This document shows, one piece after another, positions 4,245 to 35,583 of a stretch of 64,000 nt of DNA. Location of the stretch: contig NZ_FOAZ01000001.1 of NCBI RefSeq assembly GCF_900109465.1, forward strand, positions 124,001 through 188,000. Reading direction: 5' to 3'. Each line of letters opens with the position of its first letter. The first letter of the stretch is position 1. The notes beneath the pieces were generated by a model, which worked only from the letters and a program-made list of their open reading frames with translations, was not told the DNA's origin and searched no databases. The position numbers were made by a program, and so were the translations under genes. Source of the DNA: Streptacidiphilus jiangxiensis. Its GTDB lineage: Bacteria > Actinomycetota > Actinomycetes > Streptomycetales > Streptomycetaceae.

Positions 4245-4273
4245 CAAGAATCTAACGGTCCGTCAGATTCTTG
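4245..4273. promoter_or_regulatory. Palindromic operator, extended copy (cyclase/SDR divergent promoter)
   Basis: A 29-bp near-perfect palindrome: arms CAAGAATCT...AGATTCTTG around core AACGGTCCGTC, one mismatched pair. The central 21 bp match the element repeated at 16030, 16081, 21776, 21837, 33872 and 33933. Its right edge ends 14 bp before the GTG of the SDR gene, so a bound repressor would block both divergent genes. Confidence 0.82.
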
Positions 4274-4287
4274 AGGAGGGGTACGGC

Positions 4288-5196
4288 GTGGCTGAGTTCC
4301 TGCGCGGCAAGGTGGTCGCGGTCACCGGTGCCGGACGCGGCATCGGGCGTGCGGTGGCGCTCGCCTGTGCCGCCGAGGGAGCCAAGGTCGTGGTCAACGA
4401 CTACGGCGTCGGCATCGACGGCTCCGCGCCGACCAGCGAGGTCGCCGACGAGGTCGTCAAGGAGATCGAGGCGGCCGGCGGCGAGGCCGTGGCCGTCGCC
4501 GACGACATCGCCACCATGGCCGGCGGCGAGCGGGTCGTCCGCACCGCCGTCGAGGCCTTCGGGCGCCTGGACGGCGTCGTCTGCGTCGCCGGCATCCTGC
4601 GTGAGCGGATGCTCTTCAACATGTCCGAGGAGGAGTGGGATCCCGTCATCGCCACCCATCTCAAGGGCACCTTCACCGTCTTCCGTGCCGCGTCCGCGCT
4701 GATGCGCAAGCAGGGCGGCGGGAGTCTCATCGGCTTCACCAGCGGCAACCACCAGGGCTCCGTCAGCCAGCCCAACTACAGCGCGGCCAAGGGCGGCATC
4801 ATCTCCCTGGTCCGCAGCGCGGCCCTGGGCCTTGCCAAGTACGGCGTCACCGCCAACGCCGTGGCCCCGGTCGCCCGCACCCGCATGTCGGCGAACGTCC
4901 CGATGGAGCTCAAGGAGATCGGAGCGCCGGAGGACGTGGCGGCGCTCGTCGTCTACCTGCTCTCCGACGCCGCCCACGAGATCACCGGGCAGGTCTACAC
5001 CGTCGCCGGATCCAAGATCGCCGTGTGGGCCCAGCCGCGCGAACTTCGGGCCATGTACGCCGAGCCGGGCTCCTGGACCCCGGAGCGGATCGCGGACTTC
5101 CTGCCCGGGACGGTGGGCGTCGACCCGATGCCGATGCTCGCGCAGCTGGAGGCCATGGCGAAGGCCGCCGCCGCCAAGGACCGCCCCAATGCGTAA
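4288..5196 (+). CDS. Short-chain dehydrogenase/reductase
   Basis: The GTG start was chosen because GAGGAGG lies 8 bp upstream and the protein then opens with MAEFLRGKVVAVTGAGRGIG; an upstream in-frame start would run through the operator. It gives 302 residues with the NAD(P) loop TGAGRGIG (about 13-20), NAG-equivalent VAG, Ser152 and the Y164-x3-K168 catalytic pair. The 50-residue C-terminal extension is longer than classical SDRs and resembles the dehydrogenase half of multifunctional peroxisomal beta-oxidation enzymes and steroid-pathway SDRs. It probably oxidises a 3-hydroxyacyl-CoA or a cyclic alcohol. The next dehydrogenase gene starts 7 bp after the stop, so the two form an operon. Confidence 0.9.
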   Translation: MAEFLRGKVVAVTGAGRGIGRAVALACAAEGAKVVVNDYGVGIDGSAPTSEVADEVVKEIEAAGGEAVAVADDIATMAGGERVVRTAVEAFGRLDGVVCVAGILRERMLFNMSEEEWDPVIATHLKGTFTVFRAASALMRKQGGGSLIGFTSGNHQGSVSQPNYSAAKGGIISLVRSAALGLAKYGVTANAVAPVARTRMSANVPMELKEIGAPEDVAALVVYLLSDAAHEITGQVYTVAGSKIAVWAQPRELRAMYAEPGSWTPERIADFLPGTVGVDPMPMLAQLEAMAKAAAAKDRPNA

Positions 5197-13035: not shown

Positions 13036-13842
13036 CTATCGCCCCTCGAACCGTGCTTCCCGTCGTTCTACGAAAGCACGAACGCCCTCCTGCGCGTCGC
13101 GAGTCGCCATGTTGATCTCCTGCGCCGTCGCCTCCGCCGCGAAGGACGCGGCCCGGTCGCCGTCCAGGGAGGCATTGACCAACGCCTTCGTCAACGCGTA
13201 GGCACGGGTGGGACCGGCGGCGAGACGTTCTGCCCACTCACTCACGGTCTTCTCCAACTCCGCGCCCGGCACGACCCGGTTCACCAGCCCCAGCCGCTCC
13301 GCCTCCGCCGCGCGGACCTTCTCGCCGAGGAGGAGCAGCTCCTTGGCCCGCTGCACGCCGACCAGGCGCGGCAGCAGCCAGGCAGCGCCGCCGTCCGGGA
13401 CGAGCCCGCGCCTGGCGAAGACCTGCACCAGCGAGGCTTCCTCCGCAGCAAGCACCAGGTCGCAGGCGAGGGCCAGCTGCACGCCGACTCCGGCCGCCAC
13501 GCCGTTGAGCGCGCACAGCACCGGCTTCTCGCAGTCCAGCACCGCCCCGACCATCCGCTGCACGCCCAGCCGCAGCATCCGCGCGACGTCCCCGGCGGTC
13601 CGCTCGCCCCCGGCGCCGCCGCTGAGGTCCGCGCCGGAGCAGAACGCGCGCCCGGCGCCGGTCAGCACGACCACGCGCACCGTCCGGTCCGCCGACGCCT
13701 CCTCCAGCGCGGCGATCAGCCGCTCCCGCAGCTCGGCGGTCACGGCGTTCAGCGCCTCGGGCCGGTTCAGCGTCAGCCGCCTGACCCCGTCGTCGCCGTC
13801 CTCGACCAGCAGTACGGTCCCGTTCTCCGGCGACGCGCTCAT
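13036..13842 (-). CDS. Enoyl-CoA hydratase/isomerase family protein
   Basis: A 268-residue crotonase. The first oxyanion-hole segment is GRAFCSGADLS (about 70-80) and the second ALNGVAAGVGVQLALACD (about 113-130). The following VPDGGAAWLLPRLVG motif carries Asp rather than Glu at the catalytic position, as in PaaG-type isomerases and hydratases. Its ATG overlaps the stop of the upstream acyl-CoA synthetase (ATGA, 13839-13842), so the two are translationally coupled. It would hydrate the enoyl-CoA made by the acyl-CoA dehydrogenases. Confidence 0.92.
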   Translation of the reverse strand: MSASPENGTVLLVEDGDDGVRRLTLNRPEALNAVTAELRERLIAALEEASADRTVRVVVLTGAGRAFCSGADLSGGAGGERTAGDVARMLRLGVQRMVGAVLDCEKPVLCALNGVAAGVGVQLALACDLVLAAEEASLVQVFARRGLVPDGGAAWLLPRLVGVQRAKELLLLGEKVRAAEAERLGLVNRVVPGAELEKTVSEWAERLAAGPTRAYALTKALVNASLDGDRAASFAAEATAQEINMATRDAQEGVRAFVERREARFEGR

Positions 13843-15995
13843 CGGCACACCGCCAGCGCGTCCAACGCGACGACGCCCTTGCCGCGTTCCAGCACCACCA
13901 GCGGGTTGATGTCCAGCTCGGTGAGCTGGTCGCCCAGATCGAGCGCCATCCGCTGGACCCGCAGCACCACCTCGACCAGCGCGTCCACGTCCATCGGCGG
14001 CAGGCCGCGGACGCCGTCCAGCAGCGGGCGGCAGCGCAGCCGGGCCAGGGCGCGGCGTACGTCGCCGGGCCCGAACGGCGGGACGAGCACCGTCGTGTCG
14101 CGCAGCACCTCGACGAAGACGCCGCCCATGCCGACCGTGACGACCGGCCCGAAGACCGGGTCGTCGGTGACGCCGACGACCATCTCCACGCCCGCCTCGA
14201 CCATCTGGCACACCAGCACGCCGTCGAGTCTCGGGATGCCGCCCGCCCGCGCGTTCTCCGTCAGCTCCCGGAACGCCTCCCGCACCTGGCTGGCGCTGGT
14301 CAACCCGACCTTCACCAGCCCGAGTTCGGTCTTGTGCGCGACGCCGGGCGCCGATCCCTTCAGCACGACCGGATAGCCGACCACCCCGGCCGCGCGCACC
14401 GCGCCCGCCGCGCTGGTGACCAACTGCTCGCGCGGCACCCGGATGCCGTAGGAGCGCAACAACTGCTTGGCCGCGAACTCGCTGAGCTTCTCGCCCCCGT
14501 GCAGCAGCCGCTGCGCCTTCGCCTTGCCGGCGCAGGCCTCGCGCGGCGCGTCGTCGAACGGGGACCGGTAGGTGCGGGCGAACGCGTGGTGCTCCAGGTA
14601 GGCGGCGACCGCGCGGACGCAGTTGCCGAAGGTGCGGAAGACGGCGACCCGGGAGGAGCCGAGCAGCGTCTCCCGGTAGGCCGCCTCCGTCCCGACCGGA
14701 GAGCCCCAGATGACGCAGACCAGCTTGTCCGTCGTCTCGGCCACCTCGACCAGGTCCTGCGCCAGCTTGTCGCTCATCGGCGGGAACGGGCCGGTGATCG
14801 GGCAGATCAGCACGCCCACGTCGGGGTCGTCGAGGATCGCGTCGAGGATCTTGCGACCGCGCCAGTCGCCGACCGGGTGGCCGCCGTTGTCGACGGGGTT
14901 GGCGACGCTCAGGTACTCCGGGATCCACTGGTGCAGCTCGTCCTGCTTGGCCTCGGACAGCCGCGGCAGGGAGAGCCCGGCCGACGAGGCCATGTCGGCC
15001 AGGTGCGCACCGGTGCCGCCGGAGATGGAGTAGACGACGACGCCGGGCGCCCGCGGCGGCTTGGCTCGCGCCAACAGGGCTGCGGTGTCCTGCAGTTCGT
15101 CCAGGCCGTCGACACGGATCACACCGAACTGGCGGAACGCCGCGTCCACCACGTCGTCGGCACCGGTCAGTTTGCCGGTGTGGGACTGCGCCATCCGCGC
15201 ACCCTCGTCCGTGCGGCCCACCTTGACCGCGACGACCGGGACGCCGCGCCGGGCGGCGTGGTCGGCGGCCAGCAGGAAGGCCCGGCCGTCCTTGATGCCC
15301 TCGATGTAGGCGGCAATCGCGCCGATCTCGGGCTGGTCGGCGAACCACTGCACGAAGTCGGCGACCTCCAGGTCGGCCTCGTTGCCGGTCGGCGCCCAGT
15401 GGCTGAGCCGGATGCCCAGTTCCTGGAGGGTGAACAACGGGCGGCCCTGGTGGCCGGACTGGGTGATCAGCGCGATGGCCGGCCCCGTCAGGTCGTCGCG
15501 GAACCGCTCGAAGGCGTTGAGGTTCGTGTTGGGCCCGAGCAGGCGCAGGCCCGTCGGGGCCTCGGCGACCAGGCGCTCCAGGTGCCGCTGCGCCGCTCGT
15601 CCGCTCTCGCCGGTCTCGGCGAAGCCGGAGGCGAAGGCGACGGCGTACTTCACCTTGGCCTCGACCAACTGCGGTACGACGGCTGCCGGATCGGCGAGCA
15701 GGATCACCGCGAGGTCGATCGGGTCCGCGTCCGGGTCGGCCGGGATCGCCGCGAGGTCGGGATAGCAGGGCAGCCCGTCCACCTCGTCCCGGCCCGGGTT
15801 CACCGGGTACATCCGCGCTCCGACCCGCTCCGACCACGCACGCAGCTGCCGGGTGATCCCGGTGTTGGGCCGTCCCGGCGTGTCGGATGCGCCGATCACG
15901 GCCACGGCCGTGGGCCGGAAGAAGCGGTCCAGGTCCACCGCGCGCGGGCGCAGCGGCCGCCCGCTCGCGTCGGTCTCGGTGTCCGTCTCCCGCAT
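13839..15995 (-). CDS. Acetate--CoA ligase-family protein (ADP-forming acyl-CoA synthetase)
   Basis: 718 residues with the fused alpha-beta layout of ADP-forming acyl-CoA synthetases: CoA-binding Rossmann domain (25-150, starting VAVIGASDTPGRPN), two flavodoxin-like ligase domains (155-470) and a C-terminal ATP-grasp domain (495-715). The phosphorylated histidine is the H of QSHTGKLTG (about residue 272). The ATG has GGAGG 6 bp upstream. It would make an acyl-CoA from a free acid with ATP to ADP plus Pi, or run in reverse. First gene of the operon with the enoyl-CoA hydratase, its start lying 35 bp from the operator at 16030-16050. Confidence 0.88.
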   Translation of the reverse strand: MRETDTETDASGRPLRPRAVDLDRFFRPTAVAVIGASDTPGRPNTGITRQLRAWSERVGARMYPVNPGRDEVDGLPCYPDLAAIPADPDADPIDLAVILLADPAAVVPQLVEAKVKYAVAFASGFAETGESGRAAQRHLERLVAEAPTGLRLLGPNTNLNAFERFRDDLTGPAIALITQSGHQGRPLFTLQELGIRLSHWAPTGNEADLEVADFVQWFADQPEIGAIAAYIEGIKDGRAFLLAADHAARRGVPVVAVKVGRTDEGARMAQSHTGKLTGADDVVDAAFRQFGVIRVDGLDELQDTAALLARAKPPRAPGVVVYSISGGTGAHLADMASSAGLSLPRLSEAKQDELHQWIPEYLSVANPVDNGGHPVGDWRGRKILDAILDDPDVGVLICPITGPFPPMSDKLAQDLVEVAETTDKLVCVIWGSPVGTEAAYRETLLGSSRVAVFRTFGNCVRAVAAYLEHHAFARTYRSPFDDAPREACAGKAKAQRLLHGGEKLSEFAAKQLLRSYGIRVPREQLVTSAAGAVRAAGVVGYPVVLKGSAPGVAHKTELGLVKVGLTSASQVREAFRELTENARAGGIPRLDGVLVCQMVEAGVEMVVGVTDDPVFGPVVTVGMGGVFVEVLRDTTVLVPPFGPGDVRRALARLRCRPLLDGVRGLPPMDVDALVEVVLRVQRMALDLGDQLTELDINPLVVLERGKGVVALDALAVCR

Positions 15996-16029: not shown

Positions 16030-16050
16030 AATCTGACGTACCATCAGATT
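16030..16050. promoter_or_regulatory. Palindromic operator, copy near the acyl-CoA synthetase gene
   Basis: AATCTGACGTACCATCAGATT, a 21-bp palindrome with one mismatched pair. It is 35 bp upstream of the minus-strand synthetase start and shares the divergent region with the second copy at 16081-16101; the two centres are 51 bp apart. Confidence 0.8.
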
Positions 16051-16080
16051 ACTGTCGGGAGTGCTCCGCAGGAAGACGCC

Positions 16081-16101
16081 AAACTGACGCTGCGTCAGAA
16101 A
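16081..16101. promoter_or_regulatory. Palindromic operator, copy near the DoxX-like gene
   Basis: AAACTGACGCTGCGTCAGAAA, with a perfect 15-bp inner palindrome CTGACGCTGCGTCAG. It sits 38 bp upstream of the GTG of the DoxX-like gene. Confidence 0.75.
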
Positions 16102-16139: not shown

Positions 16140-16604
16140 GTGCAGACGGTGCACACCTACGGGCTGTCGGCGGCCCAGTGGCTGGCGGTGCTGCGGATCG
16201 GGCTCGGCCTGTGGTGGCTGGAGAGCTGGCGTCACAAGGACAAGAAGGGCTGGCTGCAGCGCTCGACCGGCATCGAGTGGGCCAAGGACGTCGCCTCCCG
16301 CCACCGCTGGGCCTTTGTCCGGGGCTCCTTCGACCGCATCGTCGCCCCTCGTCCCCGGGCGATGGCCTACGTCGTGGTCCTCGCCGAGCTCGCCCTCGGT
16401 CTCGGCCTCACCTTCGGCCTGCTCAGCCCGATCGCGCTGGCGGCCGGACTGCTGCTCAACCTCCTCTACTTCGTCCTGATGATCCACGACTGGGCCGAGC
16501 AGGGGCAGAACCTGATGATGGCGCTCGTCTCCCTGGTCTGCCTGCTCGCCGCGAGCTGGCAGTGCTGGTCGCTCGACCGCGCCTTCCACCTCTTCGGCGC
16601 CTGA
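16140..16604 (+). CDS. DoxX-like integral membrane protein
   Basis: GTG at 16140 follows GGGGAGG at ideal spacing and gives a 154-residue protein with four hydrophobic stretches (about residues 10-27, 72-92, 95-113 and 124-140). The overall pattern fits the DoxX family, seen with quinone-linked or redox enzymes. The insert WRHKDKKGWLQRSTGIEW between the first two segments is distinctive. Located between two operators and two CoA-pathway genes, it may be a membrane partner of the catabolic regulon, for example in electron transfer or substrate entry; this is inference. Confidence 0.72.
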   Translation: MQTVHTYGLSAAQWLAVLRIGLGLWWLESWRHKDKKGWLQRSTGIEWAKDVASRHRWAFVRGSFDRIVAPRPRAMAYVVVLAELALGLGLTFGLLSPIALAAGLLLNLLYFVLMIHDWAEQGQNLMMALVSLVCLLAASWQCWSLDRAFHLFGA

Positions 16605-16619
16605 CCTCGGAGCTGTCTG

Positions 16620-17066
16620 ATGACGACCCACCGCACCGACCTGCCCGAGCCCGACGCCTTCACCCGTCCCTACTGGGACGCGGCCGCCGAGGGTCGCCTG
16701 CTGCTGCGCCGCTGCGGCGCCTGCGGCCGTGCGCACCACTACCCGCGCGAGTTCTGCCCCCACTGCTGGAGTGAGGACGTGGCCTGGGAGCCGGCGAGCG
16801 GACGCGCCGTCCTCTACACCTGGTCGGTGGTCCACGCGAACGACCTCCCACCGTTCCGGGACCGGCTGCCCTATGTCGCCGCCGTGGTCGAGCTCGCGGA
16901 GGGACCTCGGATGATGACCACCCTGGTGGACTGTGATCCGACAGGCCTTCAGATCGGTATGGAGCTTGTGGCCGACTTTGTCGCATTTGCCGTCGGCGAC
17001 GAGCCCGGGCCGCGCGTCCCCGTATTCCGGCCGTCGCCCGACTCGCGCTCCCACTCGGGAGCCTGA
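16620..17066 (+). CDS. DUF35 zinc-ribbon/OB-fold protein
   Basis: 148 residues. A rubredoxin-like zinc ribbon (CGACGRAHHYPREFCPHC, C-x2-C-x13-C-x2-C, about residues 33-51) is followed by an OB fold with LYTWSVVHAN. DUF35 proteins bind CoA substrates and form complexes with non-decarboxylating thiolases, in archaeal acetoacetyl-CoA thiolase/HMG-CoA synthase and in steroid side-chain retro-aldolases (Ltp2 with ChsH2). It follows the DoxX-like gene by 15 bp in the same operon. Its natural partner could be the thiolase encoded at 20.5 kb, which has no adjacent DUF35 gene. Confidence 0.88.
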   Translation: MTTHRTDLPEPDAFTRPYWDAAAEGRLLLRRCGACGRAHHYPREFCPHCWSEDVAWEPASGRAVLYTWSVVHANDLPPFRDRLPYVAAVVELAEGPRMMTTLVDCDPTGLQIGMELVADFVAFAVGDEPGPRVPVFRPSPDSRSHSGA

Positions 17067-20526: not shown

Positions 20527-21774
20527 TCAGCGCCCCAGGACGAGCGTTCCCGAGGAGCAGAACCAGCCGCCCGTGCCGCTCACCAGCGCCAGCTCGGGGG
20601 AGCCCGGCACCTGACGCTGTGGCGCCGACGTCGCGTACTCGCGCCGGAGTTGGCGCACCGCCTCGACGACGAGGAAGAGGCCGCGCATGCCCGGGTGGCA
20701 GGCGGAGAGGCCGCCGCCGTCGGTGTTGGTGGGCAGCTCGCCGTCCCGCAGCAGGCGGCCCGCCTTGGCCTCGACGAACGTGCCGCCCTCGCCCTTCGCG
20801 CAGAAGCCGAGGTCCTCCAGCATCACCAACGGCATGTAGGTGAAGGCGTCGTAGAGCTCGCACAGGTCGATGTCGGCGGGGGAGACCCCCGCGCGCTCGA
20901 AGGCGAGGCGGCCGGAGACCGCGGCCGGGGAGACCGTGAAGTCCTCCCAGTCCGACATCGTGCTGTGGCTGAGCGCCTCGCCCGTGCCGAGGACCCAGAC
21001 CGGATCGTGCCGGCTGTCCGCCACGTACTCCTCCGCGGCCAGCAGCACCGCGCAGCCGCCGTCGGAACGGATGCAGCAGTGCAGCTTGGTGAACGGGTCG
21101 GCCACCATCGGCCCGTCCAGGACCTCGTCGACGCTGATCGGTGTCCGGTACATCGCGTCCGGGTTGGTTGCGGCGTTGGCCCGAGCCTGCACCGCGACGC
21201 CCGCCAACTGCTCGGCCGTCGTGCCGTACTCGTGCATGTGCCGACGGGCGGCCATCGCGTACTTGGCGATCAGCGTGTGCCCGTACGGCGCCTCGAACTG
21301 CAGCGGCCCGCGGGCGCCGAGCGACAGCGCGGCGGTGCGGCGGCGTGCCTTCAGGTCCGCGCGGGCGGTCGAGCCGTAGACGAGCAGGACCGCGTTGGCG
21401 TGCCCCGCCGCGATCGCGTCGGCGGCGTGCGCGGCCATGACTTCCCAGGTCGAGCCGCCGACGGAGGTGGAGTCGGTCCAGGTCGGCCGCAGCCCCAGGT
21501 ACTCGGAGACCTCCACCGGCGCCAGGATGCCCAGGCCCGCCGAGGCCACGCCGTCGATCACGTCCTTGGACAGGCCCGAGTCCGCGAGCGCGCGCCGCGC
21601 GGCCTGGGCGTGCAGCTGGAACGCCGTCGCCTCGTCGACCCGTCCGCAGTCGCTGAGCGCGACCCCGACCACGGCCACCCGACGGCGTCGGCGCGGCGCG
21701 TCGTCGGCCGGGACGGGGTGGTGCAGCGGGCCGGGGGCGACGGTGGCGGAGGGCGAAGGACCAGCAGCAGTCAT
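20527..21774 (-). CDS. Thiolase-family protein, SCP2/lipid-transfer (Ltp) type
   Basis: 415 residues with the thiolase double fold. At the usual nucleophile position the sequence is SVGGSTWEVMAAH, without cysteine. The C-terminal active-site loop is retained as TNTDGGGLSACHPG (His and Cys), followed by GTGGWFCSSGT. Loss of the first cysteine is typical of Ltp-type proteins in steroid and lipid side-chain catabolism, some of which act as retro-aldolases with DUF35 partners. The ATG lies two bases from the operator at 21776-21796, leaving no room for a ribosome binding site, so the transcript may be leaderless. Confidence 0.85.
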   Translation of the reverse strand: MTAAGPSPSATVAPGPLHHPVPADDAPRRRRRVAVVGVALSDCGRVDEATAFQLHAQAARRALADSGLSKDVIDGVASAGLGILAPVEVSEYLGLRPTWTDSTSVGGSTWEVMAAHAADAIAAGHANAVLLVYGSTARADLKARRRTAALSLGARGPLQFEAPYGHTLIAKYAMAARRHMHEYGTTAEQLAGVAVQARANAATNPDAMYRTPISVDEVLDGPMVADPFTKLHCCIRSDGGCAVLLAAEEYVADSRHDPVWVLGTGEALSHSTMSDWEDFTVSPAAVSGRLAFERAGVSPADIDLCELYDAFTYMPLVMLEDLGFCAKGEGGTFVEAKAGRLLRDGELPTNTDGGGLSACHPGMRGLFLVVEAVRQLRREYATSAPQRQVPGSPELALVSGTGGWFCSSGTLVLGR

Positions 21775-21775
21775 A

Positions 21776-21796
21776 AATCTGACGGTACATCAGATC
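21776..21796. promoter_or_regulatory. Palindromic operator, copy at the thiolase start
   Basis: AATCTGACGGTACATCAGATC. Read toward the thiolase the centre is TACCGT, a TANNNT-type -10 hexamer located 8-13 bp before the ATG, so the operator probably overlaps the core promoter. Confidence 0.8.
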
Positions 21797-21836
21797 TGCT
21801 CTCGCGCGCCCCTGTCCGGCGCAGACGGTGGAACCT

Positions 21837-21857
21837 AGTATGACGAACCGTCAGATC
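21837..21857. promoter_or_regulatory. Palindromic operator, copy at the acyl-CoA dehydrogenase gene
   Basis: AGTATGACGAACCGTCAGATC; the right half is perfect and the left half keeps TGACG. It is 50 bp upstream of the dehydrogenase ATG, with its centre 61 bp from that of the neighbouring copy. Confidence 0.72.
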
Positions 21858-21907: not shown

Positions 21908-23197
21908 ATGGATCCCGCGCTCACCCAGGAACAGGACGAGATCGCCCGCGCCCTGCGCGACGCGCTCTCCAAGCAGGCCGGGATGGAGGAGGTTCGCGCG
22001 GCCGCCGCCACGCCCGTCGGATACGACGCCGAGCTGTGGCGCAGACTGGCCGAGCAGCTGGGCCTGGCCGGCCTCGCCCTGCCCGAGCGGCACGGCGGCA
22101 CCGGGCTCGGCCCCGTCGAGCTGGCCCTCGCCTGCGAGGAGGCCGGACGCGTGCTGCTGCCCTCGCCGCTGCTCGCCAGCTCCGTCCTCGCCGCCACCGC
22201 GATCGCCGGCTGCGCCGACGCGGCCCAGCGCGACGACCTGCTCCCCGCACTCGCCTCCGGCGCCCGGACCGCCGCTCTCGCCCTCCCCGGCACGCCCGCG
22301 CTCGCCCTCGGGCTCGTTCCGGACGCCAATCCCCAGCCCTTCCTCGGCGACGTCCCGTCCGGTGGCGGCCGCGCCGGGGGCATCCAGGCCAAGCCCGCCG
22401 ACGACGGCTACTGGACCCTCTACGGCGAGGCCGTCCACGTCCTCGACGGCGCCCGCGCCGACCTGCTCGTCCTCGCCGCCCACGCGGGCGGCTTCCCGCG
22501 CGGGCGCACCGTTCTCTTCGTCATGGACGCGGCCGGTGCGGGAGGCGGTGCCGCAGCCACCGGCTCGGGCGCCTCCGGTGCCGGGGGCGGCGCGCCCGGC
22601 CTGCGCCGTGAGCGCAGCGCCGGCATCGACTCGACCCGCAGCGTCGCCCGGGTCGAGCTGCGCGACGTCCTCGCCCGTCCGCTCGGCGACCCGGCCCGTG
22701 ACGCCGGCCCCGTGCTCGCCTCGGTGGGCCGTCTCGCGGCCGTCGCCGTCGCGGCCGAGGCCGTCGGGGCAGCGGCCCAGGCACTCGCCAGGACCGTGGA
22801 GTACGTGCAGGCCAGGCAGCAGTTCGGTCGCGCGGTCGGCTCCTTCCAGGCGGTCAAGCACCGTCTCGCCGACGTCTACGTGGCCGTGGAGACCGCCCGC
22901 TCGGCGATGCTCTACGCCGCCTGGTCCGCCGTGACCGCGCCCGAGGACCCGGTACCCGCGCTGTTGGCCCTCGCCCACGCCCTCACCGCCCAGCGCACCG
23001 CCGCCGCGGAGGCGATCCAGCTCCACGGCGGCATCGCGATCACCTGGGAGCACGACGCCCACCTGTACTTCAAGCGCGCGGCCGCGGACGAGCTGCTCTT
23101 CGGCCCGCCGCATCTGCTGCGCGCCCGCGCGGCCGAACTGTCCGGCGTGCTCGCCGCGACGGGTACCACCCGCACGGGAGGGGCGACGACCCGATGA
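21908..23197 (+). CDS. Acyl-CoA dehydrogenase family protein
   Basis: 429 residues. The N-terminal helical domain (1-120) and C-terminal helical domain (QQFGRAVGSFQAVKHRLAD near 300-318 and IQLHGGIAITWEHD near 369-382) are clear. The central domain is interrupted by a Gly/Ala-rich insertion (about residues 211-232, AAGAGGGAAATGSGASGAGG), not expected in an active FAD cleft and probably a surface loop. The C-terminal features match the beta-type partner of heteromeric dehydrogenases. It overlaps the next gene by ATGA and is divergent from the thiolase under two shared operators. Confidence 0.88.
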   Translation: MDPALTQEQDEIARALRDALSKQAGMEEVRAAAATPVGYDAELWRRLAEQLGLAGLALPERHGGTGLGPVELALACEEAGRVLLPSPLLASSVLAATAIAGCADAAQRDDLLPALASGARTAALALPGTPALALGLVPDANPQPFLGDVPSGGGRAGGIQAKPADDGYWTLYGEAVHVLDGARADLLVLAAHAGGFPRGRTVLFVMDAAGAGGGAAATGSGASGAGGGAPGLRRERSAGIDSTRSVARVELRDVLARPLGDPARDAGPVLASVGRLAAVAVAAEAVGAAAQALARTVEYVQARQQFGRAVGSFQAVKHRLADVYVAVETARSAMLYAAWSAVTAPEDPVPALLALAHALTAQRTAAAEAIQLHGGIAITWEHDAHLYFKRAAADELLFGPPHLLRARAAELSGVLAATGTTRTGGATTR

Positions 23198-23661
23198 AAC
23201 TGCTGGAGACCGCGATGCAGAAGGTGTCCGCGACGCCGACCTTCGCCCGGATCGCCCCCTCCGTCGTCCCGCGCCTGGACAAGGCGGTGCACAGGCTGAG
23301 CGGCGGCAAGTTCATGTTGAGTCAGTGGATGCTGCCGTCGCTCTTCCTGACGACGACCGGCCGCAGGAGCGGGGAGCCGCGCACCACCCCGCTGGCCTGC
23401 CTGCCGCAGGGGGACGGGTTCCTCGTCGTCGGCAGCAACTTCGGCCGGACCTCCCACCCCTCCTGGACGGGCAACCTGCTCGCCGACTCCGACGCCGTCG
23501 TCGAGCACCGTGGCCGCACGGTGCCCGTCCGGGCCCGGATGCTCGCCGACGACGAGCGCGCGGACGCCTGGGCGGCGCTGTTGCGGATGTGGCCCCCGTA
23601 CGCGCAGTACCAGGCCCGGGTGGAACGCGAGATCCGCGTCTTCCGCCTGGAGCCGCGCTAG
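23194..23661 (+). CDS. Nitroreductase/deazaflavin-dependent (DDN-like) family protein
   Basis: 155 residues, ATG overlapping the preceding stop (ATGA). The split-barrel core shows LFLTTTGRRSGEPRTTPLA (about 50-68), LVVGSNFGRTSHPSW (about 77-91) and a C-terminal RVEREIRVFRLEPR, the pattern of the mycobacterial Ddn/Rv3547 family. Members bind F420 or other cofactors, and in catabolic operons may reduce enone or quinone intermediates. It is co-transcribed with the dehydrogenase, so it belongs to the palindrome-controlled set. Confidence 0.87.
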   Translation: MKLLETAMQKVSATPTFARIAPSVVPRLDKAVHRLSGGKFMLSQWMLPSLFLTTTGRRSGEPRTTPLACLPQGDGFLVVGSNFGRTSHPSWTGNLLADSDAVVEHRGRTVPVRARMLADDERADAWAALLRMWPPYAQYQARVEREIRVFRLEPR

Positions 23662-23972: not shown

Positions 23973-24620
23973 CTACTTCGGGGGCTTCTTGCCCGTCATA
24001 CCGAGGTAGACCAGCAGAGCCAGGTTGGGGGTGAGCTCCTTGGCCTTGACGCCCCAGGAGTCGAATCCCTTCTGGTGCTCCGCGACGGCGGCCAGCATCG
24101 CGACCAGCGACCCGGCGACAGCCGGCGCGCTGACCGACTTGTCCGCCTTGCCGGACGCCTGCATGGCCTTGAGCGAGTCCGTGAGGGAGTTGGTCACGGC
24201 GTTGAGGATCTTCATGCGGATCTTGAAGAACCGCTTGTCCCCTTCGGCCGCACCCAGCGTCACCACACGAAGGATGGCCTCGTTGTCGCGCCAGAAGGAG
24301 AGGAAGCCGTCGACCAGCTCCTCCGCCGTCTGGTAGCCGGCCTTGCCGACCCACGACTTGTCGGCGACGAGGTCCTTGAGACCGGCGCCGTCCTTGGCCA
24401 TTTCATCCGCGATCTCGAGGACAGCGCCCTCGACGTCGGGGAAGTACTGATAGAAGGTTGCGGGGGAGGTACCCGCCATCCGGGCGACGTCGATGACCTT
24501 GACGTCCCGGTAGGGCGAGGTCGCGAGCATTTCGCGGAGGCAGTCCAGCAGCTTCTGCCGCGTGGCCTGTCCACGACGCCCGGCGACACGCCCGTCGACG
24601 GTGCGAACTTGTCCTGTCAT
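23973..24620 (-). CDS. TetR-family transcriptional regulator
   Basis: 215 residues. The N-terminal helix-turn-helix spans about 18-66 (VIDVARMAGTSPATFYQYFPDVEGAV) and the C-terminal ligand-binding domain follows. The recognition helix TSPATFYQYF resembles that of regulators of lipid and steroid catabolism in actinobacteria. It is the only TetR gene in the window and sits within the 4-34 kb stretch containing seven copies of a TetR-like 21-bp palindrome, so it is the best local candidate for their repressor. Its own promoter has only a degenerate half-site arrangement (CGTCAGGCTGACG at 24678-24690). Confidence 0.92.
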   Translation of the reverse strand: MTGQVRTVDGRVAGRRGQATRQKLLDCLREMLATSPYRDVKVIDVARMAGTSPATFYQYFPDVEGAVLEIADEMAKDGAGLKDLVADKSWVGKAGYQTAEELVDGFLSFWRDNEAILRVVTLGAAEGDKRFFKIRMKILNAVTNSLTDSLKAMQASGKADKSVSAPAVAGSLVAMLAAVAEHQKGFDSWGVKAKELTPNLALLVYLGMTGKKPPK

Positions 24621-26572: not shown

Positions 26573-29266
26573 GTGGACCAGCTGACGGCGCACGATCCCA
26601 GACGGATCGGGCCCTTCGAGGTGCTGGGCCGGCTCGGCGCGGGCGGAATGGGCTTGGTCTACCTGGCGCGTTCGGCGGCAGGCCGCCGGGTCGCCATCAA
26701 GACGGTCCGTGCGGAGCTGGCCGAGGACCAGCTCTTCCGGGTCCGTTTCGCCCGCGAGATCGCGGCGGCACGCACGGTCAGCGGCTTCTACACCGCCGCG
26801 GTCGTCGACGCCGACGCCGACGCGGCCGTGCCGTGGCTCGCCACCGCGTACATTCCGGCGCCCTCGCTGGAGGACCTGGTCACCGAGGCCGGGCCGCTTC
26901 CCGTCGCCACGGTGCGCTGGCTGATCGCCGGCATCGCGGAGGCGCTGCAGTCCATCCACGCGGCCAACCTGGTCCACCGCGACCTCAAGCCCTCCAACGT
27001 GCTGATCACGGAGGACGGCCCGCGTGTGATCGACTTCGGCATCGCGGCGGGCGTCTCGCACACCCGCCTCACGATGACCAACGTCGCCGTGGGCACCCCC
27101 GCCTACATGTCGCCCGAGCAGGCGCGCGACAGCCGTGGCGTCAAGGGCTCCTCCGACGTGTTCTCGCTCGGCTCGCTGACGGTCTTCGCCGCCACCGGCC
27201 ATCCTCCGTACCACGGGGCCAACCCCGTGGAGACGGTGTTCATGCTGCTCCGCGAGGCCCCGGACCTCGCCGGGCTCCCGGAGGAGCTGGCCCCCCTGGT
27301 CCGCGCCTGCATGCGTACCGCGCCCGAGCGACGCCCGCTCCCGGAGGAGATCGCCGCCGAGCTCGCACCGCACCTCTACGGTTCCGGTGACGGCAGCGGG
27401 GACGACGCGGGGGAGTACTTGCCCCCGGCGGCCCTGGCGCTGATCGAGCGCATGAAGGGCAAGCGCACGCCGCCCCCGCCGCCGTTCCAGCCGCAGCCCC
27501 CGCGCCAGCCGTCGGCGGGGCAGGTGCCGCAGGGCGGCGGCTTCCCGGGGCAGGGGCAGGGGCAGGGGCAGGGGCACGTTCACGCCGGTGGCGGTGCCGG
27601 TGGTGGTGGCGGTGGTGCCGGCGGCGGTCAGATGCAGGGCGGGCCGGACCCGTACGGTCGCCACGGCGGCTCCGCGCCGCTCGGGCCCGTTCCGCCGGTC
27701 GGTCAGCCGGTTCCGCCGGTCGGTCAGCCGGGGCAGCAGCCCGGCTACCCCGGCCACGTGGCAGGGCTCCCCGCCGCCGAAGGCGGGCCCGCGCCCGTCG
27801 GCGGGCGGCACGCCGCGCCCGTGCCGGGCACGCCGCCCGAGGCGGCGACGACCGCGCGACCCGTCGTGCACCTGCCCGGTGTGGCCGCGCCGATAGGGCC
27901 AGGCGTCCGCCTGCCCGCCCATCCGTCGTCCGAGCCCGTGGCACCGCCCACGACGGGCTGGGTCCGCCACGGCGGCTCCCACGCCGCGCCGGGCGTGCCG
28001 GCGGCCTCGGGCGCACCAGCCGTGCCCGCCGTCCCGGCGCCTGCGCAGCCGACCCCCTCGCACGCGTCCGCCCCGTCGGCACCCGCCGTTCCCCCGGAGC
28101 GACCGGGACCCGGGCCGGTGTCCGTCCCCGGGTCCGTGCCGGGGTCGGATCCGGGAGCGGTTCCGGGGGCGGACACACCGTGGCGCCCGTGGCGTTTCCG
28201 CATGTCCCACGACGTGTGGGGCTCGCCGGTCGTCTCGGACGGTGCGCTCTACGTCACCAGCTTCGGCGTCCACGCCCTCGACATCGCCAGCGGCCGCCGC
28301 CGCTTCCGCACCGAGAGCGTCGCCTGGGCCCTCGCCGTCGCAGACGGCCGGGTCCACGCTGCCGACGGCCCGAACCTCTTCACCCTGCAGGCCGCCGACG
28401 GCGCCGAACGCTGGCGCGTCGCCCTCGACGGCTGGACGTACACCCTCGACGCCGCCGGCGGCGCCCTCGTGGCCGGCACCCGCGGCGGCGGCGTCCACGT
28501 GCGCTCCGCGATCGACGGCAGCGAGATGTGGCAGGCCCGGGACGCCCAGCAGGCCTACGAGAACCCGGCCTCCGGCCCGTGCGTGATCGGCGACTCGGTC
28601 TACTACTACGGCGGCGGGTGCCTACGGTCCGTCGAGTTGACGACGGGTCAGCCCCAGTGGGCACTGCCGCTCGGCGAGGACGTCCCCTCCCGCCCGGTGC
28701 TCCACCGCGGTGTGCTCCTGCTATGCAGCGGCACCCGCGTCTACGCGGTGGACGAGCAGACCGGCGCGGAGCGGTGGCGCTTCGACGCCCCGGTGGTGCT
28801 GTTCACCTCACCGGCCGTCAGCGAGCACGGGGTCTTCGTCGCCGACTACCTCGGCACCGTCTTCGCTCTGGACCCGGCCACCGGCGGCGTCCGCTGGCAC
28901 GCCCGCACCGGCGGGCGGCAGGGCGCGGAGCCCGTCGTGGTGGCCGAGGACAGCGTCCTGGTCGGCAGCGGCGACACGGCGTACGCCTTCGACGCCCGCA
29001 CGGGCGCGGAGCGCTGGCGTTATGCGGCCCGTGCGGAGCTCGCCGGAGTCCCGGCCGCGGCCGACGGCCTGGTCCACCTCGGCAGCCGGGACCACTCCCT
29101 GCACACCCTCGAGCTCGCCACGGGCCGCCTGCGCTGGAAGCTCGACACCGGCGGCGAGATCACCGGCCCCCCGGTCACGGCCGACGGCCGCGTCTTCGCG
29201 TGCAGCAAGGACCACTGCGTCTACGCCCTCGACGCCGCCCGCGGTACGGCGACGACGAGGGAGTAG
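26573..29266 (+). CDS. Serine/threonine protein kinase with C-terminal PQQ-type beta-propeller
   Basis: 897 residues from the GTG at 26573 (GGGGAGG upstream). The N-terminal Hanks-type kinase (16-265) has LGAGGMGLVYLA, K42, HRDLKPSN (H135-D137), DFG at 154 and MSPEQA. A Gly/Pro/Gln-rich linker follows (about 285-540). The C-terminal part consists of repeated beta-propeller blades (LDIASGRRRFRTE, LDPATGGVRWHART, FDARTGAERWRYA-like). No membrane helix is visible between the domains, unlike PknD- or PknB-type receptors, so the propeller is likely cytoplasmic and may select protein partners. Confidence 0.9.
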   Translation: MDQLTAHDPRRIGPFEVLGRLGAGGMGLVYLARSAAGRRVAIKTVRAELAEDQLFRVRFAREIAAARTVSGFYTAAVVDADADAAVPWLATAYIPAPSLEDLVTEAGPLPVATVRWLIAGIAEALQSIHAANLVHRDLKPSNVLITEDGPRVIDFGIAAGVSHTRLTMTNVAVGTPAYMSPEQARDSRGVKGSSDVFSLGSLTVFAATGHPPYHGANPVETVFMLLREAPDLAGLPEELAPLVRACMRTAPERRPLPEEIAAELAPHLYGSGDGSGDDAGEYLPPAALALIERMKGKRTPPPPPFQPQPPRQPSAGQVPQGGGFPGQGQGQGQGHVHAGGGAGGGGGGAGGGQMQGGPDPYGRHGGSAPLGPVPPVGQPVPPVGQPGQQPGYPGHVAGLPAAEGGPAPVGGRHAAPVPGTPPEAATTARPVVHLPGVAAPIGPGVRLPAHPSSEPVAPPTTGWVRHGGSHAAPGVPAASGAPAVPAVPAPAQPTPSHASAPSAPAVPPERPGPGPVSVPGSVPGSDPGAVPGADTPWRPWRFRMSHDVWGSPVVSDGALYVTSFGVHALDIASGRRRFRTESVAWALAVADGRVHAADGPNLFTLQAADGAERWRVALDGWTYTLDAAGGALVAGTRGGGVHVRSAIDGSEMWQARDAQQAYENPASGPCVIGDSVYYYGGGCLRSVELTTGQPQWALPLGEDVPSRPVLHRGVLLLCSGTRVYAVDEQTGAERWRFDAPVVLFTSPAVSEHGVFVADYLGTVFALDPATGGVRWHARTGGRQGAEPVVVAEDSVLVGSGDTAYAFDARTGAERWRYAARAELAGVPAAADGLVHLGSRDHSLHTLELATGRLRWKLDTGGEITGPPVTADGRVFACSKDHCVYALDAARGTATTRE

Positions 29267-32031: not shown

Positions 32032-32493
32032 TCATCCGCCGCACAGCGCCCAGCGCACCACCGTGACCTCGGGCGTGACCGCCTGGAAGACCGCCTGGAC
32101 CGGCGCGCCGATGCGCAGCCGCTGCGGCGGAACCGAGTTCCACGGTGCATTGGGCCGCCGGACCGAGCCGGTCAGCGTGCCGACCAGACGTATGTGCGGG
32201 TCCTCCTCCAGCTCCACGACCGCCACGGGGTAGGGGGCCCGCTCCGCGTAGGCGGGCAGCAGCGGTGGGTGGGCGACGACGTAGGACCACAGGCGCCCAC
32301 GTCCCGACATCAACTGCCACTCGTCGGTGAAGCTGCCGCAGTGCGGGCAGCAGGGGCGCGGCGGGAAGCGCAGCCGCCCGCACTCCGCGCAGGCCTGGAC
32401 GCGCAGCTCGCCCTGGCGGGCGTAGGCCCAGAACGGCTCGCCGTCGTCGTCGGGCCACGGCAGCAGCAGCCCCTCGGCGGTCAGGGTGTCCAT
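32032..32493 (-). CDS. DUF35 zinc-ribbon/OB-fold protein
   Basis: 153 residues with the zinc ribbon CAECGRLRFPPRPCCPHC (C-x2-C-x12-C-x2-C, about 36-54) and an OB fold (WSYVVAHPPLLPAY). The N-terminal segment WPDDDGEPFWAYARQGELRVQ is the helical hairpin used to dock to thiolases. It lies downstream of the thiolase gene at 32650-33792 on the same strand, separated by a repetitive 156-bp spacer. This thiolase-DUF35 order matches pairs known to act as one complex in archaeal and steroid pathways. The last base of the coding region is 18 bp from the C-rich gap. Confidence 0.88.
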   Translation of the reverse strand: MDTLTAEGLLLPWPDDDGEPFWAYARQGELRVQACAECGRLRFPPRPCCPHCGSFTDEWQLMSGRGRLWSYVVAHPPLLPAYAERAPYPVAVVELEEDPHIRLVGTLTGSVRRPNAPWNSVPPQRLRIGAPVQAVFQAVTPEVTVVRWALCGG

Positions 32494-32519
32494 CTCGCAG
32501 CCTCCAGGTGCTCCGGGCC

Positions 32520-32632
32520 GGTCGGTCGGATCGCTCGGCTCGCTCGGATCGGTTCGCTCGCTCGGATCGGTTCGCTGGTTCCGTCGGCTCGGATCGGTTC
32601 GGTTCTGTTCGGTTCGGCGGTCGGTCCGGCCG
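32520..32632. repeat. TCGG-rich tandem repeat between thiolase and DUF35 genes
   Basis: Three copies of GCTCGGATCGGTTCG (32542-32556, 32560-32574, 32587-32601) plus shorter TCGGTTCGG units. The tract occupies most of the spacer between two otherwise operonic genes. Confidence 0.7.
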
Positions 32633-32649
32633 ATGACAGGTGCCCGTCG

Positions 32650-33792
32650 TCAGACGCGCAGCAGCACGGCCGAGGTCGGCACGCCCTCGCCTGCGGTGAC
32701 CAGGCAGGTTGCCGCGTCGGGCACCTGCGCCGTGGAAATGCCGCGCAACTGCTTGACGCCCTCGTTGATCAGGTTGAAGCCGTGCACATAGCCCTCGGAG
32801 AGCCCGCCGCCGCCGGTGTTGATCGGCAGCCGCCCGCCCAGTTCGAGCGCGCCGCCCTCGGTGAAGGCCGCGCCCTCGCCGCGCCCACAGAAGCCGTAGC
32901 CCTCCAGGGAGAGCGGGATGAGGGGGGTGAAGGCGTCGTAGATCTGGGCGACGTCGACGTCTCCGGGGCCGAAGTCGGCGGTCTTCCACAGCTGTCGGGC
33001 GGCCGTCCAGGCGGGACCGGTCAGCGGGTCGTCGTTCCAGTAGTTGACCATCCCGTGGTGCTGCGCGGGCAGGCCCTGGGCGACCGAGTGGATGTAGACG
33101 GGCCGTTGGCGGCAGTCGCGGGCGCGCTCCGCGCTGACCACGACGCAGGCGAGGGCGCCGTCCGTCTCCAGGCAGTTGTCGTAGAGGCAGAGCGGTTCGC
33201 TGATCCAGCGGGCGTCCATGTACAGCTCGCGGGTGAGCGGGCGGTCGTACATGATCGCGTCGGGGTTCTGGTTGGCACGGTTGCGGCAGGCCAGTGCGAC
33301 GTTGAACAGGTGGTCCCGGGTGGCGCCGTACTCGTGCATGTAGCGGCGGGCCAGCATGGCGATCTCGTCCGCGGGCCGCAGCAGCCCGAAGGGGCGGGTC
33401 CACTGCGCGGGCGTGGGCAGCTGCTGTGTCGTGTTGGTCCAGGGACGCTTGCCGCTGCCGCGTTTGCGGCTGCGCCAGGCGACGCCGACGCTGGCCTGGC
33501 CGGTGGCGACGGCCATGGCCAGGTGGGCGACGGTGGCGCAGGAACCGCCGCCACCGAAGCCGATCCGGGAGAAGAAGGTGACGTCGCCCGCGCCGATGGC
33601 CTTGGCGAGCTCGACCTCGTCGGTCTCCTCCATGGTGTAGGAGGCGAGGGCGTCGACCTCGTGGGGCTCGATCCCGGCGTCGTCCAGGGCAGCGAGCACG
33701 GCCCGGCAGGCGAGCGCCTTCTCGGACTCCTCGAGATGTTTGGCGAAGCGGGTCTGGCCGATGCCGACGATGGCCGTGCGGTCCCTGAGCAT
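32650..33792 (-). CDS. Thiolase-family protein, Ltp2-like
   Basis: 380 residues from the ATG at 33792 (CGGGAGCC upstream, protein begins MLRDRTAIVGIGQTRF); an in-frame ATG at 33846 would add 18 residues unrelated to the family. The N-terminal loop is GGGGSCATVAHLA. The C-terminal loop is NTGGGGLSEGYVHGFN, where the GHP of true thiolases is replaced by EGYVHG, a feature I associate with Ltp2-type steroid retro-aldolases that use tyrosine residues. A DUF35 gene lies downstream. The probable role is carbon-carbon cleavage of a beta-hydroxy- or beta-keto-acyl-CoA; a plain acetyl-transferase cannot be excluded. Confidence 0.87.
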   Translation of the reverse strand: MLRDRTAIVGIGQTRFAKHLEESEKALACRAVLAALDDAGIEPHEVDALASYTMEETDEVELAKAIGAGDVTFFSRIGFGGGGSCATVAHLAMAVATGQASVGVAWRSRKRGSGKRPWTNTTQQLPTPAQWTRPFGLLRPADEIAMLARRYMHEYGATRDHLFNVALACRNRANQNPDAIMYDRPLTRELYMDARWISEPLCLYDNCLETDGALACVVVSAERARDCRQRPVYIHSVAQGLPAQHHGMVNYWNDDPLTGPAWTAARQLWKTADFGPGDVDVAQIYDAFTPLIPLSLEGYGFCGRGEGAAFTEGGALELGGRLPINTGGGGLSEGYVHGFNLINEGVKQLRGISTAQVPDAATCLVTAGEGVPTSAVLLRV

Positions 33793-33871
33793 GGGCGGCT
33801 CCCGGAGTGCGAGTGCTCCTACAAGGCTGGAACAGGGCTGGGCCACGGAGGCGGTGGGCCACAGGGAAGAT

Positions 33872-33892
33872 CTTCTGACGTACCGTCAGAAT
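33872..33892. promoter_or_regulatory. Palindromic operator, copy near the Ltp2-like gene
   Basis: CTTCTGACGTACCGTCAGAAT; inner TTCTGACG(TAC)CGTCAGAA is a perfect inverted repeat. It is 79 bp upstream of the preferred thiolase start. Confidence 0.82.
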
Positions 33893-33932
33893 AGGGCGCC
33901 CGCCTCCCTTCCGGGAAGTCCGCCGTCAGCCT

Positions 33933-33953
33933 AATCTGACGATCAGTCACCTG
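33933..33953. promoter_or_regulatory. Palindromic operator, weak copy near the acyl-CoA ligase gene
   Basis: AATCTGACGATCAGTCACCTG keeps a perfect left half and TGAC(GATCA)GTCA symmetry. Centre-to-centre distance to the preceding copy is 61 bp, the same as between the two copies at 21.8 kb, which supports a real paired arrangement. It lies 52 bp upstream of the ligase ATG. Confidence 0.6.
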
Positions 33954-34005
33954 CGAGGCGCAGGAGCGGAACGGGCCGAACGGCTCACCGGCGGAGGGGA
34001 CGGTC

Positions 34006-35583
34006 ATGCGCGCGGATCTCGAGTGGGGCACCATCGCCAACCTCGTGCAGGCGGCAGGTGACCGCTACGGGGACCGCGAGGCGGTCGTCGGCCCACGCAG
34101 CCGCATCGGCTACGCGGAGCTGGCCTGTCGGGTCCGGCGGGCGGCGGCCGGGGTCATGGCCGCCGGGGTCAGGCCCGGCGACCGCATCGGCATCTGGGCC
34201 CCGAACACCCCGGACTACGTCGTCGCCGCGCTCGGCGCGGTGAGCGCGGGCGCCGTGCTCGTACCGCTCAACACCAGGCTCAAGGGCGGAGAGGCGGCCG
34301 AACTGCTCCGGCGCACCCGGACCCGCCTGCTCTTCGTCACCTCCAACTTCCTCGGCGTCAGCTACGTCGCCGCCCTCAAGGCCGCGGGCCCCTTGCCGGA
34401 GCTGCTCACCACCGTCGTCCTCGGCGAGACCGCGGCTGTCCCCGGCGACCTGCTCTCCTGGCGCGGCTTCCTCGCCGCGGGCGCGGACATCCCCGATCGG
34501 GCCGTACAGGCCCGGATCGCGGCCGTCGCACCCGGGGACCCGGCCGACATCATGTTCACCTCGGGCACCACCGGCCTGCCCAAGGGCGCCGTCACCACCC
34601 ACGCCCAGACCCTGCGGGCCTTCGACACCTGGGCCGACCTCTCGGGCCTCGCCGAGGGCGACCGCTACCTGGTGGTCAACCCGTTCACCCACACCTTCGG
34701 CTGGAAGGCGGGCATCCTCGCGTCCCTGATGCGGGGCGCCACGATCCTGCCCCAGCCCGTCTTCGACGCCGAGGCCGTGCTCGCCAAGATCGCGACCGAG
34801 CGCGTCACCGTCCTCCCCGGCGCGCCGACCGTCTACCAGACCCTGCTCGACCACCCCGCCCGCGAGCAGTACGACCTCACCTCGCTGCGCCTGGCCGTGA
34901 CCGGCGCCGCCGTCGTCCCGCTGGAGCTCGTCCACCGCATCCGCGACGAGCTCGGCTTCGACACCGTCCTCACCGCCTACGGCCTGACCGAGAGCTGCGG
35001 CATGGTGACCATGTGCCGCCGCGACGACACCGCCGACACCGTCGCCGCGACCTCGGGCCGTGCCGTCCCCGGCGTCGAGGTCCGGGTCCGCAGCGCCGAG
35101 GGCAAGGACCAGGCGGCCGGCGAGCCCGGCGAGGTCCAGGTCCGCGGCTACACCGTCATGCGCGGCTACTTCGAGGACCCGGCCGCCACCGCCGAGACCT
35201 TCACCGAGGACGGCTGGCTCCGCACCGGCGACATCGGCGTCCTCGACGCGGGCGGCAACGTGCGGATCACCGACCGCCTCAAGGACATGTACACCGTGGG
35301 CGGCTTCAACGCGTACCCGGCCGAGATCGAACGCATCCTCGCCCGCCACCCGCTGGTCGCCGACTCGGCTGTGATCGGCGTCCCGGACCCCCGGCTCGGC
35401 GAGGTCGGCCGGGCCTACGTGATCCCCCGTCAGCAGCCGAGTCCGGAAGCGGCGTCGGAGCTCGTCGACTGGTGCCGTCGTGAGATGGCCAACTACAAGG
35501 TCCCCCGCGAGGTGGTCTTCGTCGACGACCTGCCGCGTAACGCCATCGGGAAGGTCCTCAAGGGCGAACTCCGCAAGCACTGA
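34006..35583 (+). CDS. Acyl-CoA ligase, FadD3-like (AMP-forming)
   Basis: 525 residues of the ANL superfamily. Motifs are FTSGTTGLPKGAV (about 184-196), YGLTES (about 325-330), GDIGVLDAGGNVRITDRLKDM with GGFNAYPAEIE (about 410-443), and the catalytic lysine in NAIGKVLKGELRKH at the C-terminus. Overall it resembles FadD3, the mycobacterial ligase for the steroid C/D-ring propionate HIP, though the assignment to that substrate is inference. It is divergent from the Ltp2-like thiolase and shares two palindromic operators with it. It would provide the CoA ester that enters the beta-oxidation steps encoded across this region. Confidence 0.92.
   Translation: MRADLEWGTIANLVQAAGDRYGDREAVVGPRSRIGYAELACRVRRAAAGVMAAGVRPGDRIGIWAPNTPDYVVAALGAVSAGAVLVPLNTRLKGGEAAELLRRTRTRLLFVTSNFLGVSYVAALKAAGPLPELLTTVVLGETAAVPGDLLSWRGFLAAGADIPDRAVQARIAAVAPGDPADIMFTSGTTGLPKGAVTTHAQTLRAFDTWADLSGLAEGDRYLVVNPFTHTFGWKAGILASLMRGATILPQPVFDAEAVLAKIATERVTVLPGAPTVYQTLLDHPAREQYDLTSLRLAVTGAAVVPLELVHRIRDELGFDTVLTAYGLTESCGMVTMCRRDDTADTVAATSGRAVPGVEVRVRSAEGKDQAAGEPGEVQVRGYTVMRGYFEDPAATAETFTEDGWLRTGDIGVLDAGGNVRITDRLKDMYTVGGFNAYPAEIERILARHPLVADSAVIGVPDPRLGEVGRAYVIPRQQPSPEAASELVDWCRREMANYKVPREVVFVDDLPRNAIGKVLKGELRKH

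Follow-up and report, generated by a model that had tools for sequence, protein, structure and literature searches.

Two aldolases built on the thiolase fold, Ltp2 and Sal, are characterised in the literature that we covered, and both act on steroids. Each has a partner of the DUF35 family, as in Ltp2-ChsH2(DUF35) from Thermomonospora curvata (6OK1) and in the bile-acid aldolase Sal-Shy(DUF35) from Comamonas testosteroni (9MYR). Here we describe a gene pair of Streptacidiphilus jiangxiensis that encodes a relative of Ltp2 and a DUF35 protein. It lies in a stretch of 64,000 nucleotides (contig NZ_FOAZ01000001.1, positions 124,001 to 188,000), called the window below, and all coordinates are positions within it. 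On the strength of its sequence, motifs, clade, operators, co-inheritance and predicted folds, we consider it likely that the pair is a DUF35-dependent retro-aldolase on the thiolase fold, sister to Ltp2, and one of two such enzymes in a single operator-marked pathway for a probably non-steroid acyl-coenzyme A (acyl-CoA). The pair and its immediate surroundings are as follows.

32032 to 32493, minus strand: free-standing DUF35 partner, with a zinc ribbon (C35-x2-C38-x10-C49-x2-C52) and an OB fold.
32650 to 33792, minus strand: thiolase-fold protein of a clade sister to Ltp2 (YDAF), predicted retro-aldolase, with Gly81, Tyr285-Asp-Ala287-Phe and Tyr335.
33875 to 33889: perfect putative operator palindrome, CTGACGTACCGTCAG, in the ligase/aldolase intergenic region (33793 to 34005).
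33936 to 33950: weaker second copy, CTGACGATCAGTCAC, with 2 mismatches.
34006 to 35583, plus strand: FadD3-family acyl-CoA ligase (AMP-binding; NCBIfam match), divergent from the pair.

The thiolase-like open reading frame (380 amino acids, ATG start, strong coding bias) matches Thiolase_C_1 (1.4e-32) and the NCBIfam 'lipid-transfer protein' model PRK07855 (582 bits, cut-off 469). Its closest solved structure by sequence is T. curvata Ltp2 (TcLtp2; 6OK1_A, E 3e-99). The AlphaFold2 model (predicted local distance difference test score 92, predicted template modelling score 0.93) also finds its best structural match in 6OK1, with a template modelling score of 0.94-0.95 and 46% identity in the structural alignment; thiolases proper rank behind. 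The lone low-confidence stretch of the model, about residues 111-140, spans a loop that in TcLtp2 has been described as disordered.

The original prediction, that a thiolase and a DUF35 gene form a pair and that the thiolase carries NTGGGGLSEGYVHGFN, was right in coordinates and in the motif, which we find at residues 325-340. It was also right that the active site is not that of a thiolase but is of the Ltp2 type. In our alignment the nucleophile column, Cys in true thiolases, holds Gly81 here, as it holds Gly in TcLtp2 and C. testosteroni Sal (CtSal). The catalytic base of TcLtp2, Tyr294, corresponds to Tyr285, and its acid, Tyr344, to Tyr335, at the position of the GHP His of thiolases (TcLtp2 residues as assigned in PMC12329534). 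Thus, where SCP2-type and biosynthetic thiolases have a Cys nucleophile, HDxF or NEAF, and the GHP His, the window protein has Gly81, YDAF and Tyr335, and the Cys-His-Cys triad, examined by sequence, is absent. The oxyanion His296 of TcLtp2, in contrast, is replaced by Ala287, so that YDAF stands in place of YDHF. Replacement of this His in TcLtp2 lowered activity only about 14-fold (PMC12329534), and the natural Ala287 would therefore be compatible with catalysis.

Loss of the nucleophilic Cys (Gly81) and retention of the motif Tyr (Tyr285) are shared with the broad group of DUF35-dependent aldolases that includes Ltp2 and Sal. Sal itself resembles the window protein as a thiolase-fold aldolase with a DUF35 partner and this Tyr, but its motif is YDCY, in which Cys is the acid, and its residue at the second Tyr position is Gln; the window protein has YDAF, with Ala, and Tyr at these places. 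A putative thiolase from Sphaerobacter thermophilus (4U4E) is likewise Cys-less and of YDxF type; unlike the window protein, it keeps His (THPG) at the position of Tyr335. The Tyr335 column is loose, because of an indel, for 4U4E, CtSal and proteins with CHPG, and only the Ltp2 and YDAF rows were relied on there.

The DUF35 open reading frame (153 amino acids, ATG start, strong coding bias) bears out the prediction of a matching partner. The protein matches zf-ChsH2 and OB_ChsH2_C, each above cut-off; its closest solved structure by sequence is 6OK1_B (E 5e-21), and its predicted model also has 6OK1_B as best structural match. Thus the two proteins, modelled separately, each best match their own chain of one complex, Ltp2-ChsH2(DUF35). 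Like that of ChsH2, the zinc site is of the C4 kind, in the standard C-x2-C-x10-C-x2-C arrangement; the C3H1 form of Shy is not present. Unlike in 6OK1, the DUF35 is encoded by a gene of its own rather than fused to a MaoC hydratase, and no ChsH1/ChsH2 adjoin; DUF35 is thus not supplied by a ChsH2 hydratase at the window locus. The thiolase and DUF35 genes are separated by 156 bp, within which lies an imperfect 18-bp tandem repeat, TCGCTCGGATCGGTTCGC, in 3.1 copies (32522-32618); most Streptomyces have a far shorter spacer here.

The divergent ligase under shared operators had been correctly predicted as well. It scores 747 bits against a cut-off of 657 with the NCBIfam FadD3-family model, which is broad and implies no substrate. 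The order FadD / thiolase-DUF35 is not a chance one: among 80 Streptomycetaceae loci it recurs in all those whose contig reaches far enough. The nearest named orthologue of the thiolase, from S. neutrinimicus, is 97% identical. Identity to the window protein in Streptomyces averages 89% for the thiolase versus 64% for the DUF35 and ligase neighbours, indicating that the thiolase is under strong constraint and arguing for a catalytic role.

In a 57-row tree every YDAF/SEAYVHG protein fell into one clade (14 rows), and the YDHF Ltp2 proteins, including TcLtp2, formed a sister clade (17 rows), each with 100% support in the Shimodaira-Hasegawa-like approximate likelihood ratio test; the window thiolase lies outside the Ltp2 clade. 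YDAF was present in 18/18 clade members compared and YDHF in 13/13 Ltp2 proteins compared. Eighteen positions discriminate the two groups (conserved at >=90% within each), 6OK1 differing from the window protein accordingly; these include Ala/His287 and several in the pocket-shaping loop, 106 to 118. Both catalytic tyrosines and Asp286 are invariant across the 18 YDAF rows compared. The two groups also keep different company. Most YDAF proteins have a free-standing DUF35 alongside; in bacteria other than Streptomycetaceae they often also adjoin nucleoside-diphosphate (NDP)-forming-type acyl-CoA synthetases, amidohydrolases, luciferase-like F420 oxidoreductases and acyl-CoA dehydrogenases. The neighbours of YDHF proteins are acyl-CoA dehydrogenases together with hydratases of the MaoC and MaoC-DUF35 kinds. 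By its sequence, then, the window thiolase belongs to a distinct sister clade of Ltp2 and is not Ltp2 itself. The description of the protein as Ltp2-like therefore holds for the type of active site, but not for the oxyanion residue or the clade, and the genome has a true Ltp2 elsewhere, under the same operator (see below). We regard the pair as a well-conserved form of DUF35-dependent aldolase whose clade, active-site residue and context are new, but which is not categorically new. A literature search found no paper dealing with an Ltp2/DUF35 locus of streptomycetes or with the YDAF motif.

The expected chemistry can be outlined as follows. The thiolase-fold subunit would dimerise, with a DUF35 subunit on each half walling the substrate cleft, to give a heterotetramer. 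Tyr285, as base, would remove the proton from the β-hydroxyl of a β-hydroxyacyl-CoA, the Cα-Cβ bond would then break, and Tyr335, as acid, would protonate the enolate of the acyl-CoA; the products would be a short acyl-CoA and either a ketone or an aldehyde. With Ala287 in place of the oxyanion His, another group would have to stabilise the enolate.

The palindrome CTGACGnnnCGTCAG links the pair to a conserved catabolic regulon, the other members of which in the window are listed here with a nearby candidate regulator. The regulon, the second DUF35 and thiolase-like genes in it, and the unlinked Ltp2 operon described below were not part of the original prediction.

4252 to 4266: operator copy, between a putative cyclase (3272-4207) and a short-chain dehydrogenase/reductase (SDR; 4354-5196).
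13839 to 15995, minus strand: NDP-forming-type acyl-CoA synthetase, whose homologues adjoin the YDAF aldolase in other actinobacteria.
16033 to 16098: two operator copies (16033 and 16084), between the acyl-CoA synthetase gene and the 16140-17066 operon.
16620 to 17066, plus strand: second DUF35 protein, candidate partner of the 20527-21678 protein.
20527 to 21678, minus strand: second Cys-less thiolase-like protein of the same regulon, with YDAF but CHPG (His kept), close to 4U4E.
21779 to 21854: two operator copies (21779 and 21840), between this thiolase-like gene and the acyl-CoA dehydrogenase at 21908.
21908 to 23661, plus strand: acyl-CoA dehydrogenase and F420H2-dependent quinone-reductase-like protein, a conserved regulon operon.
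23973 to 24620, minus strand: TetR-family protein (TetR_C_38), nearby candidate regulator.

At <=3 mismatches the window holds 15 operator matches, against 2.5 +/- 1.9 in shuffled sequence, and 0/100 shuffles reach 15. The clear copies (4252, 16033, 16084, 21779, 21840 and 33875) sit in divergent promoter regions. Across the whole genome there are 228 matches at <=1 mismatch versus 41 for the reversed pattern. Several of the perfect palindromes elsewhere stand ahead of a dehydrogenase, ligase, SDR or amidohydrolase-luciferase operon; others seem unrelated, and may be chance occurrences or terminators. In 64 Streptomyces loci we counted 276 sites, whereas the reversed pattern, as control, gave 4; most of the sites lie at promoters of the ligase|thiolase, dehydrogenase|thiolase-2 and amidohydrolase genes. 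The cluster extends over about 70 kb in one complete Streptomyces genome. The pair would thus act within a CoA-dependent catabolic regulon that bears a palindromic operator of the TetR type and comprises ligases, acyl-CoA dehydrogenases, hydratases, F420-linked oxidoreductases and amidohydrolases. One member of Streptomycetaceae without the aldolase (G246) has 15 perfect operator palindromes nonetheless, suggesting that the operator has other targets or that sites of another regulator were counted.

On contig C57 the same genome carries a second, unlinked paralogue, 51% identical, whose motif is the canonical YDHF, and CTGACAGTGCGTCAG lies 56 bp upstream of its operon. This Ltp2 adjoins a single fused polypeptide with a ChsH2-like dehydratase region, a DUF35 and a MaoC domain. 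The mycobacterial igr operon consists of fadE28, fadE29, chsH2, chsH1 and ltp2. The unlinked operon corresponds to it in gene types (acyl-CoA dehydrogenase, MaoC-DUF35, acyl-CoA dehydrogenase, MaoC, Ltp2), but KshA and KstD are missing from the genome and a YDAF aldolase is added. An operator stands just upstream of the ltp2 operon in 14/14 sampled relatives with both paralogues and in 0/3 with YDHF only (Fisher p 0.0015). The 200 Streptomycetaceae genomes divide into 72 with both, 8 with YDHF only, 1 with YDAF only (76% complete) and 119 with neither, and G040, a distant actinobacterium, has the two types together in one cluster. We suggest that the YDHF operon probably takes part in the same pathway, the two aldolases most likely acting in successive or parallel steps. 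The fused ChsH2-like/DUF35/ChsH1-like MaoC protein has 409 amino acids in Streptacidiphilus (L011:10591-11820, from contig C57 of the window's genome, G000); many Streptomyces have the ChsH2-like and ChsH1-like parts as separate genes.

The most familiar alternative is that the pair is an ordinary Ltp2, a steroid side-chain aldolase performing the igr step. The nearest solved relative is indeed Ltp2, and the same regulon contains a FadD3-family ligase and the igr-type operon. The YDAF proteins, however, form a separate clade, and the window's genome has neither KshA_C nor a credible KstD (the search did not extend to models of other steroid ring genes), for which reason a steroid pathway was rejected as the default. 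Strong KshA (E <1e-80) was found in 3/200 Streptomycetaceae: only two among the 72 with both aldolases, plus one genome (G406) whose Ltp2 operon has no operator. In a published survey, 55/57 Streptomyces lacked steroid pathways (PMC4810484). Together these observations suggest that the substrate of the igr-type operon and of its YDAF companion is most likely a different one, and we regard the steroid explanation as unlikely. The substrate of the pair is probably not a steroid; a cyclic or isoprenoid acid would be a guess from the enzyme types only. Aldol-type C-C cleavage, as originally predicted, is plausible from the active site, the DUF35 partner and the ligase; the steroid part of that prediction is not supported. 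The same Tyr pair might instead support bond formation or another CoA-enolate reaction (aldol addition, decarboxylation or acyl transfer); but the Cys nucleophile and HDxF that the thiolase relatives BbsB and AACT retain in the alignment are lost here, and the neighbours (dehydrogenases, hydratases and ligases) are catabolic, which leaves this quite improbable. That the protein is a non-catalytic lipid carrier, or a scaffold organising the pathway enzymes, would fit the loss of both the thiolase cysteines and the Ltp2 oxyanion His, and the family's 'lipid-transfer protein' name. Both catalytic tyrosines and Asp286 are nevertheless kept throughout the clade and, of the three neighbours, the thiolase shows the highest conservation, and we think this role very improbable.

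Several points also weigh against a retro-aldolase in a two-aldolase pathway. His296, though non-catalytic in TcLtp2, still contributes to its activity, and no substitute oxyanion group was identified in the window protein. The association of the two aldolases over the 200 genomes (Fisher 6e-44) is uncorrected for ancestry, as are the operator counts. Finally, three other actinobacteria (G220, G134 and G322) have a YDAF protein without a YDHF Ltp2, which shows that the coupling of the two is not universal.

If the retro-aldolase assignment is true, a third, highly conserved clade in organisms that do not degrade steroids would widen the role of this aldolase class and provide a natural example of an aldolase that has lost the oxyanion His; the defined regulon would offer a route to a streptomycete catabolic substrate, and 'lipid-transfer protein' and 'acetyl-CoA acetyltransferase' annotations in hundreds of genomes would need correcting. 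More tentatively, and with the chances somewhat against it, many non-steroid-degrading streptomycetes may carry a complete operator-linked pathway for a probably natural cyclic or isoprenoid carboxylic acid. This pathway would use two steroid-type DUF35 aldolases, one igr-type (YDHF) and one of a new class (YDAF) in which the oxyanion hole has been rebuilt, and its genes would cluster in Streptomyces around apparent afsR/afsS/afsK.

The TetR-family gene at 23973-24620 was kept as a candidate regulator only. It is present in 8/8 genomes tested, four of them without the aldolase, and operator counts drop to 1-4 in three of these four. No operator (<=1 mismatch) was found upstream of its orthologues in the Streptomyces loci. 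In those loci (L023-L094; for example, L026:5056-17401; compare 26573-29266 in the window) the ligase/thiolase/DUF35 block is flanked by what we take to be afsR-afsS-like genes and an afsK-like Ser/Thr kinase. From its position near the afsK-like gene we take the TetR protein as a putative orthologue of SCO4421, whose arrangement near afsK in S. coelicolor has been described (PMC3878966). A glyoxalase-like gene follows the kinase gene in the Streptomyces loci. Streptacidiphilus fuscans has two near-identical copies of the locus on two scaffolds (L018 and L019), reflecting either duplication or assembly redundancy. In Streptacidiphilus, glycosyltransferase and epimerase genes intervene in the arrangement seen around the block in Streptomyces.
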